Assembly (NCBI GenBank): GCA_016930215.1
Contig: JAFGHH010000307.1
Span: 1-35,030 of the forward strand
DNA length: 35,030 nucleotides
Direction of reading: 5' to 3'
Source: Deltaproteobacteria bacterium
Lineage (GTDB): Bacteria > Myxococcota_A > Polyangia > DRWM01 > JAAZOP01
Shown here: positions 12,132-19,730 of the stretch, piece after piece
Layout of the letters: the number at the start of each line of letters is the position of its first letter
Numbering within the stretch: the stretch's first letter is position 1
Notes under the pieces: generated by a model
What the model saw: the letters and a program-made list of their open reading frames with translations, nothing else
The model's database searches: none
What the model was told of the DNA's origin: nothing
Made by a program: the position numbers and the translations under genes

Positions 12132-14159
<2,028 letters not shown>

Positions 14160-14165
14160 AGATCG

Positions 14166-14352
14166 AACTGCGTCGCAGGCCCCGCGAGGGCGCCTGCCGG
14201 GAGTTCGGCCGGCGAAGGGAACCCCGTGCGAATCGGGGGTGGACCCGCCGCTGTGACCGGGGACTCCGCGCCGCAACAGGCCACTGCCGGCTTCGGGCCG
14301 GTGGGAAGGCGCGGCGCGGGGGGCGATCCGGGAGCCAGAAGACCTGCCTGCG
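14166..14352 (+). ncRNA. Cobalamin (B12) riboswitch
   Basis: Conserved blocks of the cobalamin aptamer appear in the correct order. They are GAAGGGAACCCCGTGCGAAT, then GGTGGACCCGCCGCTGTGACC, then the B12 box AACAGGCCACTGCCGG, then GGGAAGGCGC, and finally CCGGGAGCCAGAAGACCTGCC. The closing GCAGG (near 14175) can pair with CCTGC (near 14345) as P1. The element sits between a predicted promoter and a lipoprotein-TonB receptor-propeller operon. In this family cobalamin binding switches the downstream uptake genes off. I infer translational control from the hairpin that follows. The edges are good to about 10 bases; the ligand class (adenosyl- or hydroxo-cobalamin) cannot be decided by eye. Confidence 0.93.
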
Positions 14353-14418
14353 ACCATGCCGGATGCGTCTCCGCGGAACGAGGCGCGTGCCGGGCTTCCC
14401 CAGGGGACGAAACAGGGG

Positions 14419-14446
14419 CCTCCCCGGGTCGTGCACGACGCGGAGG
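14419..14446 (+). promoter_or_regulatory. Candidate Shine-Dalgarno-sequestering hairpin (riboswitch expression platform)
   Basis: CCTCC at 14419-14423 is complementary to the GGAGG Shine-Dalgarno at 14442-14446. The loop contains its own stem, GTCG-TGCA-CGAC. Together they form a two-part stem that would hide the ribosome-binding site of the first B12 gene. No run of T follows, so translational rather than terminator control is likely. Confidence 0.5.
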
Positions 14447-14450
14447 TGCC

Positions 14451-15152
14451 GTGTTGCGATCGAAGGGCGGGAGGATCGAGGGCGGGACGGAGGGCGACCG
14501 GCGCCGGCGGCGTGGCGCGCGGGCGGCGCTCGCGGCGGGGCTGCTCGCGGCGGCGACCGCCTGCCTCGTCGAGGGCGACGACGGGGCGCCGTGCGACCCG
14601 CACGCCGTGCGCGTGGTCTCGTTCGCTCCGGGTCCCGGCGCCGGATTCGGCGCGGCGGAGCTGCCGGGGATCGTGCTCGGTCCCCCGTCGGGCGGGGGAG
14701 CCGAGCGGGGGAGCACCGACGTGGTTTCGCTCGGGGTCGGCGGCGAGATCGTCCTCGAGCTGGGCGGCGCGGGGATTCTCGACGGTCCCGGCGCGGATCT
14801 GCTCGTCTTCGAGAACGCGTTCTACGCCGGCGGCGACCCGACGCGGCCGTTCGTCGAGCCGGGCGTCGTGGGGGTCAGCGCGGACGGGACGACGTTCGTC
14901 GAGTTCCCGTGCGGCGGCGCCGCGCCCTGGGAGGGATGCGCGGGCCGGGCACCGGTGTTCGCGGCGCCCGGCAACGGCATCGACCCGGCCGACCCGGCGG
15001 CGGCGGGCGGCGATGCCTTCGACCTGGCGGACCTCGGCCTGTCGTCCGCGCGGTTCGTGCGGGTCCGCGATCGGGGGCTCGGCCCGGCCTTCCCCGACAC
15101 CGCGGGGTTCGACCTCGACGCGGTGGTCGCGGTCCACGCCTGCGGCGAGTGA
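14451..15152 (+). CDS. Riboswitch-controlled surface lipoprotein, candidate B12-binding accessory
   Basis: This is a 233-residue protein. A basic N-region (RRRRRGAR) and a hydrophobic segment end LLAAATAC, a plausible lipobox with Cys38. The mature domain is compact and beta-rich, with blocks VVSFAPGPGAGFG, DVVSLGVGGEIVLELG, GPGADLLVFENAFY, EPGVVGVSADGTTFVEF and the C-terminal GFDLDAVVAVHAC. From memory, surface proteins with the pattern SLG-GG-I-F then FENAF/GNAF then EPG-V-VS-DG also occur in B12 loci of Bacteroidetes. I therefore suggest a cobalamin-binding or receptor-accessory role; this is inference. The start is GTG 14451 (GGAGG 4 bases upstream) or TTG 14454 (7 bases). The TonB receptor gene begins 4 bases after the stop. 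Confidence 0.78.
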   Translation: MLRSKGGRIEGGTEGDRRRRRGARAALAAGLLAAATACLVEGDDGAPCDPHAVRVVSFAPGPGAGFGAAELPGIVLGPPSGGGAERGSTDVVSLGVGGEIVLELGGAGILDGPGADLLVFENAFYAGGDPTRPFVEPGVVGVSADGTTFVEFPCGGAAPWEGCAGRAPVFAAPGNGIDPADPAAAGGDAFDLADLGLSSARFVRVRDRGLGPAFPDTAGFDLDAVVAVHACGE

Positions 15153-15156
15153 GCGG

Positions 15157-17259
15157 GTGCGGGCACCGACCGGCCGTCTCGGCTTCCCGGCGTTCTGGGG
15201 CGCGTGGCCGCGGTTCGCCCTCGTCGCGCGGCTCCTCGCGGCCGGCTCGGCCGCGGCGCAGCCGGCGGTCGAGGAGGCCGAGGGCGTCGTCGGGCTGGAG
15301 CCGATCGAGGTCGTCGCCCCGCCGGAGCCGGTGCCGGCGGCGGCGGCGGAGAACCCCTCGCGCTTCGTGGAGGTGCTCGACGGCGCGCCGGTGCGCGAGG
15401 GGACGGGTTCGGTGGCCGACGTCGTGGAGGACGCGGCCGGCGTGCGCGTACGCCGCCATGGCGGTCTCGGGTCGTTCGCGACGATCTCGATCCGCGGGGC
15501 GGCGCCGTCGCAGGTGCCGGTGTTCATCGACGGCGTGCCCGCGGGCGACGCGCGCTCGGGCGTGGTGAGTCTCGAGGAGCTGCCCGCGGGGGAACTGGAG
15601 CGGATCGAGGTCTACCGCGGCTTCGCACCCGCGACGCTGGGCGACGCGGGGATCGGCGGCGCGCTGCAGCTCGTGACGCGCGCCGCGCCGGCCGCGGGCG
15701 GCCTGCGGTTGTCCACGGGGATGCTCGCGGGGTCGTTCGAGACCTGGAGGGGCTGGGTCGCAGGCGCGGGCGTCCCGGGTCGCGTCGGCGGCGAGCCCGT
15801 GGGCCTGCGGCTGCATTTCTCGCATCGCCGCAGCGCGGGGAACTACCGCTTCCTTTCCGACCACGGCACCCCGTTCGAGCCGGACGACGACGAGGTGCTG
15901 GTGCGGCGGAACAACGACGCGTCGCAGACGGTCGCCTCGGCGCGCCTCGCCGTGCCGCTCGGCGAGTGGAGCCTCGACGCCGCCCTGTCGCTCGTCGCCG
16001 CCGACCAGGGACTGGCGGGACTGGACTACGACCAGGCCGAGGCGGTGCGGCTGTCGGGGACCGACGGCCGGGTGCGGCTGGTCGCCGCGGCGCCGATGCT
16101 GGCCGACGGCCTCGCGGCGCTGGAGCTGGGCGGCTTCGGGGCGGTCCGCGGAGACCGGTTCTCGGACCCGCGGGGCGAGATCGGCGTCGGCCGGCAGGTC
16201 GAGGAGGACCTCGGCGGCGGCGGCGGTCTCTGGGGGATGCTCCGGCTGTTTCCCGGCGACGGCTCGCACCTGGTGCGCCTGCGCCTCGAGACGTCCTACG
16301 AGACGTTCCGGGCGGCGTACGAGCTGCCGGCGGCCGCGGAAGGCCCGCGACAGGGGCGCTGGGTCGCGCGGCTGGCCGGCGGCTACGAGGTCTCGCTGTG
16401 CGACGACGAGCTGGTGTTGCTGGCCGACCTGCGGGCCGACGCGCACGTGGACGATTTCTCCGGCGACCCGTACTTCCCGACCCGACCGGACGCGGTGGTC
16501 GGCGGCGCGTGGGACGTGCTGTTCTCGCCGTCCGCCGGCTTGCGTTGGGCCCCGCTCGCGGGACTCGAGCTGCGGGGCAACGTCGGGTGGTTCCACCGCG
16601 TACCGACGTTCGGCGAGCTGTTCGGCGATCGGGGGACGGTGATCGGCAACGCCGGGCTGCGGTCCGAATCGGCGGTCAACCTGGACCTCGGACCGGCCTG
16701 GCGCGGTCGAGACGAGGGGACCGGGCTGCACCTGCGGCTCGGCGCGGCGTTCTTCGCGTCGTTCGCCGACGACCTGATCGTCTTCGTGCCGCAGTCGCAG
16801 AGCGTGTTCCGGGCCGAGAACATCGGCGCCTCGCGCACGCTGGGCCTCGAGGCCACGCTCTGCGCCGGGTGGCGCGAAACCGTGGGCCTCGACCTGGCCT
16901 ACACGTTCCAGGAGGCGCGCGACACGGGGGACGCGCCGTACTGGTCCGGCCTGCGGCTGCCGGGCCGCGCCCCGCACGACCTGTCGGCGCGGCTCGCGCT
17001 GCGGCGCTGGGGCCTTGAGCTGTGGTACGAGCTCGATTGGCTCGCGGAAGCGCCGCTCGACCGCGCCAACTTGCGCACCGTGCCGGGCCGCGTCCTGCAC
17101 GGCGTGGGGCTTGGCTACCGGCTGCGCGCCGGCGATCGGAACGTGGTCGTGGCGGTCGAGGGGCGCAACCTGTCGGACGAGTGGGTCTACGACGCGTTCC
17201 GCTACCCCTTGCCGGGCCGGTCGGTGTTCGCGTCGTTCGTGATCGAGCTGGGGGAATAG
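15157..17259 (+). CDS. btuB: TonB-dependent outer-membrane receptor, BtuB-like
   Basis: This is a 700-residue protein. The signal peptide is cleaved after about Ala34 (GSAAA-QPA). A TonB-box-like EPIEVVA lies at 48-54. The plug domain spans about 65-190 with SVADVVEDAAGVRVRR, ISIRGAAPSQVPVFIDGVP and ELERIEVYRG...GIGGALQLVTR. A 22-strand barrel follows to the end, with the usual landmark GLRSESAVNLDLG. The family imports vitamin B12 or siderophores with energy from TonB-ExbBD. The cobalamin riboswitch upstream makes B12 or another corrinoid the likely substrate, and the gene symbol rests on that context. The GTG at 15157 is 4 bases after the preceding stop, suggesting coupling. The ORF from 14356 starts inside the riboswitch region and is rejected. 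The C-terminus (FASFVIELGE) does not end in the usual aromatic residue. Confidence 0.88.
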   Translation: MRAPTGRLGFPAFWGAWPRFALVARLLAAGSAAAQPAVEEAEGVVGLEPIEVVAPPEPVPAAAAENPSRFVEVLDGAPVREGTGSVADVVEDAAGVRVRRHGGLGSFATISIRGAAPSQVPVFIDGVPAGDARSGVVSLEELPAGELERIEVYRGFAPATLGDAGIGGALQLVTRAAPAAGGLRLSTGMLAGSFETWRGWVAGAGVPGRVGGEPVGLRLHFSHRRSAGNYRFLSDHGTPFEPDDDEVLVRRNNDASQTVASARLAVPLGEWSLDAALSLVAADQGLAGLDYDQAEAVRLSGTDGRVRLVAAAPMLADGLAALELGGFGAVRGDRFSDPRGEIGVGRQVEEDLGGGGGLWGMLRLFPGDGSHLVRLRLETSYETFRAAYELPAAAEGPRQGRWVARLAGGYEVSLCDDELVLLADLRADAHVDDFSGDPYFPTRPDAVVGGAWDVLFSPSAGLRWAPLAGLELRGNVGWFHRVPTFGELFGDRGTVIGNAGLRSESAVNLDLGPAWRGRDEGTGLHLRLGAAFFASFADDLIVFVPQSQSVFRAENIGASRTLGLEATLCAGWRETVGLDLAYTFQEARDTGDAPYWSGLRLPGRAPHDLSARLALRRWGLELWYELDWLAEAPLDRANLRTVPGRVLHGVGLGYRLRAGDRNVVVAVEGRNLSDEWVYDAFRYPLPGRSVFASFVIELGE

Positions 17260-17309
17260 GGAACAAGGAACGAGGAACAGCGAACGCGAGCAGGAGCGAG
17301 GGCGGAATC

Positions 17310-18416
17310 GTGGTGAGGATGGGTCGGGTCGTCGTCGGTCGGCGTACGGTGGTGGCATGGTTGGCCTGGGCAGGTCTCGCCGCGGGTTGCGGGGACGCGC
17401 CGCGGCGGGACCCGGCGGCGGAAGGGACGCTGTTCGTGCTGACGACCGACTTCGAGACGGGCGCGTTCTCGATCGTCGACCACGAGGCGGAGACCGCGGC
17501 CGTCAACGTCGGGCTGACGCACTCGGACGCCGTGGCACGCGTTCGCGGCTCGCGGGTCTACGTCGTCAACCGGCTGGGACAGGACAACGTCACCGCGCTC
17601 GACGCCGCGGACGGGTTCCGCGTGCTGTGGCAGCGTTCGACCGGGCCCGGGTCGAACCCTCAGGACATCGCCTTCGCGTCGGACGAGAAGGCCTACGTTC
17701 CGCGGCTCGAGCTGCCCGCCGTGCTGGTGCTCGACCCGCGCGACGGCACGCGGCTCGGCGAGGTCGACCTGTCGGGTCTGGCCGACGCGGACGGGGTGCC
17801 GGAGGCGTCGTGGGCCGTCGCCGTCGCGGACCGGATCGTGGTCGCCGTCGGCCGGCTCGACCGCAACGACGCCTACCGGCCGACCGGCCCGGGAGCGCTG
17901 GCGGTGCTCGACCCGGCGACCGACACGGTGGAGCGGACGATCGAGCTCTCGGCGGCGAACCCGTGGGGCGAGCCGGTGGTCGCGACCGACGGGCGCCTGC
18001 TGGTGGGCCTGGCGGGCCGGTTCGGCGAGTTGGACGGCGGCATCGAAGGAGTCGACCTGCCGGCGGGACCGTCGTACGGGCTGGTGGTGACCGAGGCGGA
18101 GTTGGGCGGCGACGTGCTGTCGTTCGTCGCGGGCGACGACCGGGCGCTGTGGATCCTGGTTTCCGACGCCGCGAGCGTGACCTCGCTGGTGCGTTGGGAG
18201 CCGCCGGCGGGACCGCCGCGGACGATCGTGCGGGGCAGCGGGTTCACGCTGTCCTGCGTGGCGGAGGTCGCACCCGGGCTGCTGGCGGTGTGCGACCGCG
18301 AGCGGACGGCTCCGGGCGTGCGGCTGTTCGAGCTGCCGTCGGGTGTCGAGCGGACGGTGCGGCCGATCGACGTCGGCCTGCCGCCGTGGCAGGTGCGTGT
18401 CCTCTCGCGGGAGTAG
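17310..18416 (+). CDS. Beta-propeller lipoprotein of the B12 operon, BtuG-like candidate
   Basis: This protein has 368 residues from GTG 17310, or 365 from ATG 17319. The leader ends in the good lipobox GLAAGC. The mature part consists of repeated short blade-like segments of the YncE/surface-propeller type: LFVLTTDFETGAFSIVD, VYVVNRLGQDNVTALD, AYVPRLELPAVLVLDP, WAVAVADRIVVAVGRL, GALAVLDPATDTVERTIEL and LLVGLAGRFGELDGGIEG. In Bacteroides, BtuG is a surface lipoprotein of propeller fold that binds B12 very tightly and caps the BtuB receptor. A propeller lipoprotein directly downstream of a BtuB-like gene under a B12 riboswitch is therefore a good candidate for the same role. Orthology versus convergence is unproven. 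The gap to the receptor gene is 50 bases. Confidence 0.75.
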   Translation: MVRMGRVVVGRRTVVAWLAWAGLAAGCGDAPRRDPAAEGTLFVLTTDFETGAFSIVDHEAETAAVNVGLTHSDAVARVRGSRVYVVNRLGQDNVTALDAADGFRVLWQRSTGPGSNPQDIAFASDEKAYVPRLELPAVLVLDPRDGTRLGEVDLSGLADADGVPEASWAVAVADRIVVAVGRLDRNDAYRPTGPGALAVLDPATDTVERTIELSAANPWGEPVVATDGRLLVGLAGRFGELDGGIEGVDLPAGPSYGLVVTEAELGGDVLSFVAGDDRALWILVSDAASVTSLVRWEPPAGPPRTIVRGSGFTLSCVAEVAPGLLAVCDRERTAPGVRLFELPSGVERTVRPIDVGLPPWQVRVLSRE

Positions 18417-18485
18417 ACCGGATGGTGCCGCCCGTGGAGGTCGCGGCGCGGCGCTGGGCCGCGCGCAGCGCGGGCCGAGCCGCCG

Positions 18486-18501
18486 GCCTCGCCGGCGAGG
18501 C
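18486..18501. terminator. Perfect 16-base palindrome after the B12 operon, possible terminator
   Basis: GCCTCGCCGGCGAGGC is a perfect inverted repeat 70 bases downstream of the propeller gene and upstream of the next promoter. It lacks a T-run and a loop, so a DNA-binding site is equally possible. Confidence 0.25.
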
Positions 18502-18541
18502 GGCATCGAACGGCTCGCGGCGCCACACGCGGCGCCGACGG

Positions 18542-18570
18542 TTGTCGGAGGCGGGTTCGGCGCGTACACT
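18542..18570 (+). promoter_or_regulatory. Predicted sigma70-type promoter of the vWA lipoprotein gene
   Basis: The sequence is TTGTCG, 17 bases, TACACT (four of six matches in each box, ideal spacing). It predicts a leader of about 29 bases containing GGAGGT 5 bases before the ATG at 18606. Confidence 0.55.
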
Positions 18571-18605
18571 CCCGACGTCGAGCCTTGCGGGGCAGGAGGT
18601 GTGCG

Positions 18606-19730
18606 ATGTCGATTCGGCGATTGGCCGCCCTGGTGTTCGTGGTGCCGGCGACGTTCGGCACGGCTTGTTCGGATCCGTCGGACGACCCGGTCGACTACGG
18701 TCACGTCGACGTGCGGGACGGCGACACGCCGGGCGACCCCGGGACCGAGGATCGGGTCATCCCCGACACGTCGATGGACATGATCTGCGACGAGCAGGAC
18801 TTCGACCTGCACCACGAGATCGTGCGGATCATGATCCTGCTCGACCAGTCGTCCTCGATGGAGGGCTCGCGCTGGAGCGGCGCGACCGACGCGTTGCAGG
18901 CGCTGTTGGAGAATCCGGCCTTCTACGACATGTATTTCGGGCTGGACGCGTTCCCCGACGGCTATCCGGGCAGTTGGACCGACTGCAACTCGGGGATGCT
19001 GCCGTGCATGAGCTGCCGGGAAGACGAGTGCGGGACGCTGTTCCCGCCGCAGGTGGCGGTGAACATCAGCTACCTCTCGGCGCCGGACATCGTGGCGCAC
19101 ATGAACGACCCGGCGTACCCGCAGTTCTGCACCTTCACGCCGCTGGTGAACCAGCTCGCGTACTACGACAGCGGCCCCGGGCCGACCGACGCCCCGGAGA
19201 TCTACTCCGACGACAGCGACAACTACCTCGTCGTGGTCTCGGACGGCGAGGACACCGGCTGCTACGACGGCGACCCGGTGTCGGCGCTGCGAACCCACAC
19301 GGCGAACATCCTGGCGACGCACGGCATCAAGTCGATCGCCATCGGCTTCGGCTCCACAGGGGGCGAGATGGCCTCCGAGTTGAACGCGATCGCCGGCGCC
19401 GGCGGCACCCCGTTCACGACGTTCCTCCACGCCGAGGACGGCCCGGCGCTGGCTGCGGCGTTGGAGTCGATCGCCTCCTCGATGATCACCTGCCGCTACG
19501 TGCTGGATGCCGTGGAGCCGACCGCCGACCCCGAGCAGGTCAACTTCTACCTCGACGGCGTCGTCGTGCCGATGGACGAGGACTGCACGGAGAGCTCGGG
19601 CGCCGGCTGGCACTGGTACGACGCCGACCACACCACCGTGGAGTTCTGCGGCACGTACTGCGAGCAGATCCGCGGCGGCACGATCGGCACGATCACCGCT
19701 ACCTTCGGCTGCCCGACGATCCTGATCTGA
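18606..19730 (+). CDS. von Willebrand factor A domain lipoprotein
   Basis: This is a 374-residue protein. The leader ends ATFGTAC (Cys21), followed by an acidic linker (DVRDGDTPGDPGTEDR). The vWA domain has the MIDAS motif DQSSSM (Asp80, Ser82, Ser84). Further inside are VVVSDGEDTGC and GIKSIAIGFGSTGGEM, typical of the later strands of the fold. Extra Cys (CNSGMLPCMSCREDEC) form an insertion of the kind seen in myxobacterial surface vWA proteins. The domain usually mediates metal-dependent protein contacts at the cell surface; the partner is unknown. The ATG at 18606 is fixed by GGAGGT; the TTG at 18585 is rejected. The stop codon lies within an inverted repeat shared with the convergent lptE gene. 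Confidence 0.86.
   Translation: MSIRRLAALVFVVPATFGTACSDPSDDPVDYGHVDVRDGDTPGDPGTEDRVIPDTSMDMICDEQDFDLHHEIVRIMILLDQSSSMEGSRWSGATDALQALLENPAFYDMYFGLDAFPDGYPGSWTDCNSGMLPCMSCREDECGTLFPPQVAVNISYLSAPDIVAHMNDPAYPQFCTFTPLVNQLAYYDSGPGPTDAPEIYSDDSDNYLVVVSDGEDTGCYDGDPVSALRTHTANILATHGIKSIAIGFGSTGGEMASELNAIAGAGGTPFTTFLHAEDGPALAAALESIASSMITCRYVLDAVEPTADPEQVNFYLDGVVVPMDEDCTESSGAGWHWYDADHTTVEFCGTYCEQIRGGTIGTITATFGCPTILI

Follow-up and report, generated by a model that had tools for sequence, protein, structure and literature searches.

A cobalamin riboswitch-led operon in Myxococcota: a probable BtuBG-type corrinoid uptake system with a lipoprotein of an unannotated family

Introduction

Lipoprotein-assisted uptake of cobalamin (B12) through the outer membrane is described for Bacteroides. 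In loci 1–3 of B. thetaiotaomicron, a riboswitch, the TonB-dependent receptor BtuB and the propeller lipoprotein BtuG belong to one operon, with BtuFCD included in some operons and with extra lipoproteins (PMC6143338, PMC10404256). Based on BlastP searches in 313 gut strains, BtuG was reported to be exclusive to Bacteroidetes (Wexler et al., PMC6143338). Here, we analyse a stretch of 35,030 nucleotides (the window; contig JAFGHH010000307.1 of assembly GCA_016930215.1, a Deltaproteobacteria bacterium placed in Myxococcota), in which a cobalamin riboswitch is followed by genes for a lipoprotein of an unannotated family (P0001), a TonB-dependent receptor (P0002) and a propeller lipoprotein (P0003). 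No description of a myxobacterial BtuG or of riboswitch-controlled myxobacterial B12 capture was found in the literature.

Several other systems are relevant to the comparison. The accessory lipoprotein BtuH accompanies BtuB/BtuG (PMC8941943), and BtuG1 represents BtuG fused to BtuH (PMC10404256). The B12-binding DUF4465/BtuJ jelly rolls are secreted beta-sandwiches encoded behind cobalamin riboswitches (PMC12751083, PMC13398666), and BtuL bound no cobalamin (PMC12751083). The XusA/XusB pair of xenosiderophore piracy also combines a TonB-dependent receptor with a propeller lipoprotein, the ligand being iron (PMC13142918).

Results

Organization of the operon

By far the best reading of the locus is a cobalamin-repressed, BtuBG-type operon for outer-membrane corrinoid uptake in Myxococcota, which we consider highly probable. 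The computed features behind it are the riboswitch, the layout of the operon, the folds of its products, the kinship of the receptor family with BtuB and the conservation of the set (Table 1).

The riboswitch was the sole Rfam match within the window and was recognized by the covariance model as a full-length aptamer (75.3 bits against a gathering threshold of 31.5, E = 5.4e-17, model positions 1–189); its core is conserved in an alignment with 16 other riboswitches. About 85 bases separate it from P0001, 4 bases lie between P0001 and P0002, and 50 between P0002 and P0003, all on one strand. The preliminary description of this DNA had proposed a cobalamin riboswitch with three tightly spaced genes, and this arrangement was borne out, its coordinates agreeing to within ~30 bases. 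A scan of positions 14000–18700 revealed no intrinsic terminator, and control at the translation level is for this reason only a guess; the RNA fold of the expression platform (14330–14480) was uninformative (z 0.16).

Table 1. Features of the riboswitch-led operon in the window
Feature	Position	Strand	Basis
Cobalamin riboswitch aptamer (RF00174), operon leader	14160..14365	+	Rfam
P0001, lipoprotein, beta-sandwich, family without a Pfam entry; proposed accessory B12-binding surface lipoprotein	14451..15152	+	lipobox, alignment, AlphaFold2
P0002, TonB-dependent receptor, BtuB-like; putative outer-membrane corrinoid transporter	15157..17259	+	Pfam, clade, family profile
TonB-box-like motif LEPIEVVA 3' of the P0002 signal peptide	15295..15318	+	from translation; position fits
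P0003, lipoprotein, beta-propeller of BtuG-type fold; proposed lid / B12 capture protein	17310..18416	+	AlphaFold2, Foldseek, profile

Propeller and receptor

P0003 carries the lipobox LAAGC with the Cys at 17388, as read by eye from the translation, and has no Pfam match on its own. As had been predicted from the sequence, AlphaFold2 with an alignment of 22 relatives gave a confident propeller (predicted local distance difference test, pLDDT, 89; predicted TM-score, pTM, 0.89). The first 14 matches of this model in a Foldseek search of the PDB were all structures of BtuG1, BtuG2, BtuG3 or the BtuG homologue 3DSM (E = 3e-14 to 1e-12, query TM-score 0.69–0.77, identity 13–17%). The next propeller, of generic YVTN type, had an E-value roughly a hundredfold higher (1e-10), and XusB followed at 5e-9. 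By sequence, the propeller profile reached BtuG chains at about 1e-5 and 1e-7 in two profile searches.

P0002 has a signal peptide and the Pfam plug (PF07715, E = 1.5e-16) and barrel (PF00593, E = 1.1e-28) domains. The family profile built from 23 receptors (A4) placed BtuB1 of B. thetaiotaomicron (3e-55) and E. coli BtuB (3e-53) at the top of the PDB matches; BtuB3, the unnamed TonB-linked receptor 9gbc and BtuB2 came next with CirA close behind, and PqqU and the heme and enterobactin receptors were well behind the BtuB structures. In a maximum-likelihood tree, 22 riboswitch-linked receptors including P0002 formed one clade (99/99), separate from the other placed receptors of the same genome and from six E. 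coli receptors.

The P0001 family

The first gene of the operon starts with GTG, has GGAGG just 5' of it and encodes a lipobox ending in AATAC, with the Cys at 14562. No Pfam family matched P0001, and its 54-member profile (A1) found no PDB sequence at E up to 1. The AlphaFold2 model (pLDDT 93, pTM 0.90) is a beta-sandwich resembling CBM32/discoidin domains. When this model was compared with Foldseek, the BtuG1 chain 8blw_B appeared at rank 6 with E = 3e-3 and a poor root-mean-square deviation of 9.2, while its query TM-score (0.53) was the highest among the 50 matches listed. Since no propeller-only BtuG chain was present among these 50, the match probably falls on the fused BtuH domain.

Two known families were considered as identities of P0001. 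For BtuH, no sequence similarity was detected, even though 8blw_B with its H-domain was among the PDB sequences searched; the fold evidence is ambiguous and the fold match not decisive, and P0001 is much shorter than BtuH2 and lacks its PKD/Ig-like domains. DUF4465/BtuJ was rejected: a PF14717 match and the NTPAY loop are both missing, and no profile–profile match was obtained with a two-sequence template. DUF4465 does occur in Myxococcota, in 3 of the 290 genomes of the host's class as against 151 for P0001 homologues, and in two of the three it lies directly behind a cobalamin riboswitch (L179, G062:C501; L180, G056:C280).

Among families with a name, only Leptospira LIC_13355 (NF033170) is related to P0001, which matches its model at E = 5e-13; at 48.8 bits against a cut-off of 120, this does not amount to membership. 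The motifs SLG-GG, FENAF and EPG-V-VS-DG, which had been tentatively likened to those of surface proteins of Bacteroidetes B12 loci, are present and conserved across the P0001 family alignment.

Scanning genome contigs with a pattern yielded 421 confirmed relatives. The best 80 of these came from records assigned to Myxococcota or 'Deltaproteobacteria', apart from a few that bore odd labels. The nearest public relatives belong to groundwater Myxococcota metagenome-assembled genomes (MAGs; 65% identity in P0001), with Corallococcus and Myxococcus strains more distant, in agreement with the earlier impression of a myxobacterium-like genome. A plasmid search with P0001 gave no match. One record named Comamonas sp. 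KCTC 72670 (L111) has a locus resembling those of Corallococcus/Myxococcus and is probably mislabelled or contaminated.

Conservation of the set in Myxococcota

The comparison covered 105 unique loci and 114 collected P0001 copies, with a covariance model (R1) built from 17 of the riboswitches concerned. Cobalamin riboswitches were present in 80 of the 105 loci, and 87 of the 114 copies had one upstream in the same orientation at a distance of up to 6 kb; for such a position, we estimate the chance expectation at well under 1% of genes, given about two riboswitches per genome. Rfam's own model, which is independent of the R1 training, detected them in 14/20 and 7/16 loci tested, some with only 1.5 kb of flank. 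Relative to the nearest downstream marker gene, 99 riboswitches pointed toward it and none away.

The riboswitch, P0001, the receptor and the propeller occurred together in 22 of the 105 loci. The order of the window (riboswitch-P0001-receptor-propeller), for which a search in other myxobacteria had been proposed, was found in L073, L074, L117, L140, L142 and L085. Other loci showed riboswitch-receptor-propeller-P0001 (L068, L069, L052), riboswitch-propeller-P0001 (L078, L097, L100) or riboswitch-P0001 alone. In L122 and L119, the operon extends into homologues whose best models are BtuF and then BtuC, and in L119 btuC is followed by an ABC ATPase gene closest to heme/corrinoid ATPases (a btuD homologue). 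In addition, a propeller-like N-terminal part is fused to a C-terminal P0001 domain in L059 (3837–5705), L060 (9989–11839) and L119 (4912–6585), which parallels the BtuG-BtuH fusion of BtuG1.

Further riboswitch arrangements were observed in these genomes. Corallococcus loci (L086, L087, L091, L102, L107, L131, L139) and a Myxococcaceae MAG (L094) hold up to three cobalamin riboswitches within ~9 kb. Each of these riboswitches leads a lipoprotein or a receptor set, namely a receptor with a 538-aa propeller-like protein, or a lipoprotein of 452 or 475 aa with a copy of P0001 behind it; these two lipoproteins, which in L086 stand between riboswitch and P0001, were not recognized as propellers. 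In L057, L058, L070 and L071, cobalamin riboswitches lead another unannotated family pair (~210–530 aa and 240–490 aa; clusters c11 and c12), and in the first three of these loci they occur on both strands, arranged back to back. In Labilithrix-like genomes (L035, L037, L075, L077, L092, L118, L151), a lone riboswitch-P0001 unit lies upstream of a conserved lipoprotein gene, with a 428–451-aa protein, seryl-tRNA synthetase-like by eye, also encoded downstream.

Cobalamin economy of the host

The window is one contig (C433) of a 6.4 Mb groundwater assembly that is 84% complete. This genome contains two cobalamin riboswitches including that of the window; the second, on contig C227, precedes a second P0003-like gene, which is cut by the contig end. 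The B12-dependent enzymes include MetH and three of the methylmalonyl-CoA-mutase type, and a BtuCDF/Fec-like cluster lies outside the window, while CbiC, a marker of corrin synthesis, had no match in this 84% complete MAG. Based on these results, the host is a B12 user that possibly does not synthesize the vitamin itself. The preliminary description had noted that BtuF, BtuCD and cobalamin-using enzymes were lacking, which holds for the window; it does not hold for the genome or for the relatives with btuFCD in the operon. The activation domain of the host's MetH (L170, G000:C36:7766-8356) contains one in-frame TGA, indicating either a broken gene or an assembly error.

Flanking genes

Upstream, window positions 12132–14159 encode a cysteine-rich, trypsin-like secreted protein ending in a Cys, a hydrophobic stretch and an Arg-rich tail, which is MYXO-CTERM-like by eye and had no NCBIfam match. 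Downstream, 18606–19730 encodes a lipoprotein with weak similarity to the gliding lipoprotein CglB (E = 2.6e-9, under the cut-off), which, as far as seen, is outside the conserved B12 set.

Discussion

Proposed pathway

From these features of homology and context we infer repression upon ligand binding, the ligand itself and the affinity for it, and a lid mechanism, as well as that P0001 and P0003 are surface-exposed and bind B12. At high cellular cobalamin, the leader RNA would bind cobalamin and switch expression off, and under B12 scarcity the three envelope proteins would be produced. P0002 would serve as a TonB-driven corrinoid channel, with P0003 as a BtuG-like capture lid over it. P0001 probably binds corrinoids and passes them to the receptor-lid complex, taking the position of BtuH/BtuJ in Bacteroides. 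For the inner-membrane step, a system of the BtuFCD type would be used, whose genes lie at another place in this genome but within the operon in some relatives.

The claim that a B12 operon with the component types of Bacteroides exists in another phylum is supported by the riboswitch, the BtuG-like propeller and the BtuB-like receptor family. The description of the capture as 'piracy-grade' is an affinity claim and is unsupported. Compared with the Bacteroides loci, the propeller is only ~15% identical, gene order varies with P0001 often first, and surface export of these lipoproteins is not predictable via the Bacteroidetes export signal.

Alternative explanations

Several observations weigh against the proposed uptake operon, and they bear on each of its components. 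Pfam, the PDB profile search and profile comparison all failed to show sequence kinship between P0001 and any known B12 binder. This agrees with a reading that we hold less likely than not, namely that the operon serves B12 uptake while P0001 itself is no binder, acting as a factor for structure or delivery, comparable to BtuL, or as an adhesin-like surface protein; its only named relative, LIC_13355, was studied as a host-binding protein for laminin and plasminogen (PMC11891782). Against this stand the position of P0001, which is the component most regularly found behind the riboswitch and often the sole gene there, its fusion to propellers in some genomes, and the query TM-score of BtuG1, the chain that carries a BtuH domain, which was the top value among the 50 matches listed. 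That P0001 acts as an accessory B12 binder is likely, its chances being even or a little better.

As for the propeller, its profile scores the generic YVTN surface-layer protein 1l0q above BtuG by sequence, P0003 does not match DUF5074 (PF16819), and only 2 of 28 relatives do so, weakly. For these reasons, membership in the BtuG family is not proven by sequence, and we call P0003 BtuG-like on the grounds of its fold and its context. If P0003 were a propeller that is unrelated to BtuG and serves a different role, its resemblance to BtuG would reflect the common YVTN fold only; this reading would agree with the low identity and with the higher score of 1l0q. We regard it as improbable, given that the best structural matches are all BtuG, well ahead of the next propeller, and that the neighbourhood of receptor and riboswitch is the one known for btuG.

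The receptor raises the question of the ligand. The best NCBIfam match of P0002 as a single sequence is the myxochelin receptor MxcH, mainly via the plug, with TonB-B12 (TIGR01779) behind it and far under the cut-off, and the clade is not placed with E. coli BtuB in the tree that includes the E. coli receptors. The earlier comparison of the receptor with BtuB is supported at the level of the family profile, whose best match is BtuB1. Receptor and propeller might import another ligand, such as an iron-siderophore, heme, pyrroloquinoline quinone (PQQ) or a cobalt complex, with the riboswitch only coupling this import to B12 status. XusA/XusB and PqqU/YncE are receptor-propeller pairs for other ligands, pqqU and yncE are adjacent in E. 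coli, and XusB structures are among the Foldseek matches of P0003. However, the E-values of BtuG structures are over a thousandfold lower than that of XusB, the receptor family profile favours BtuB, btuFCD is present in two relatives and a cobalamin riboswitch at most loci, so that import of another ligand appears very unlikely.

Some points also limit the comparative evidence. The loci are related by descent and are not phylogenetically independent; 23 of the 105 have P0001 with neither a partner nor a detected riboswitch, some because the contig ends, and many others combine riboswitch and P0001 without a receptor or propeller nearby. The missing CbiC is weak evidence because the MAG is only 84% complete. 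Nothing was found in favour of the idea that the riboswitch is part of a different transcript and adjacent by chance, and this idea can practically be dismissed in view of the uniform orientation of the riboswitch and its recurrence across the loci.

Cobalamin-repressed corrinoid uptake remains the preferred reading. Judged at the level of families, the P0003 model is a propeller, the receptor profile matches BtuB structures ahead of siderophore receptors, and the riboswitch passes the covariance model, so that none of the findings named beforehand as refuting a B12-capture operon was obtained.

Conclusions

The principle of this system is known, whereas its occurrence in the phylum Myxococcota and the unannotated family of one of its components are new. 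A BtuG-fold propeller, a BtuB-like receptor and a cobalamin riboswitch, in some cases with btuFCD, occur widely across Myxococcota, also in Corallococcus and Myxococcus, which are in culture. These findings would extend TonB transport with a lid and assisting lipoproteins to bacteria that are predatory or live in soil or groundwater. Because Corallococcus loci hold up to three cobalamin riboswitches, we suggest that competition for B12 matters to these bacteria. The riboswitch linkage of the P0001 family makes B12 binding directly and cheaply testable. We give an even chance to the broader proposal that P0001 defines a new class of lipoproteins, unrelated by sequence, that bind corrinoids outside the cell, and that it is the principal accessory B12 binder in Myxococcota. 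Its partner would be a lidded transporter of the BtuBG type, which would then extend beyond Bacteroidetes and might reflect either ancestry or horizontal sharing.

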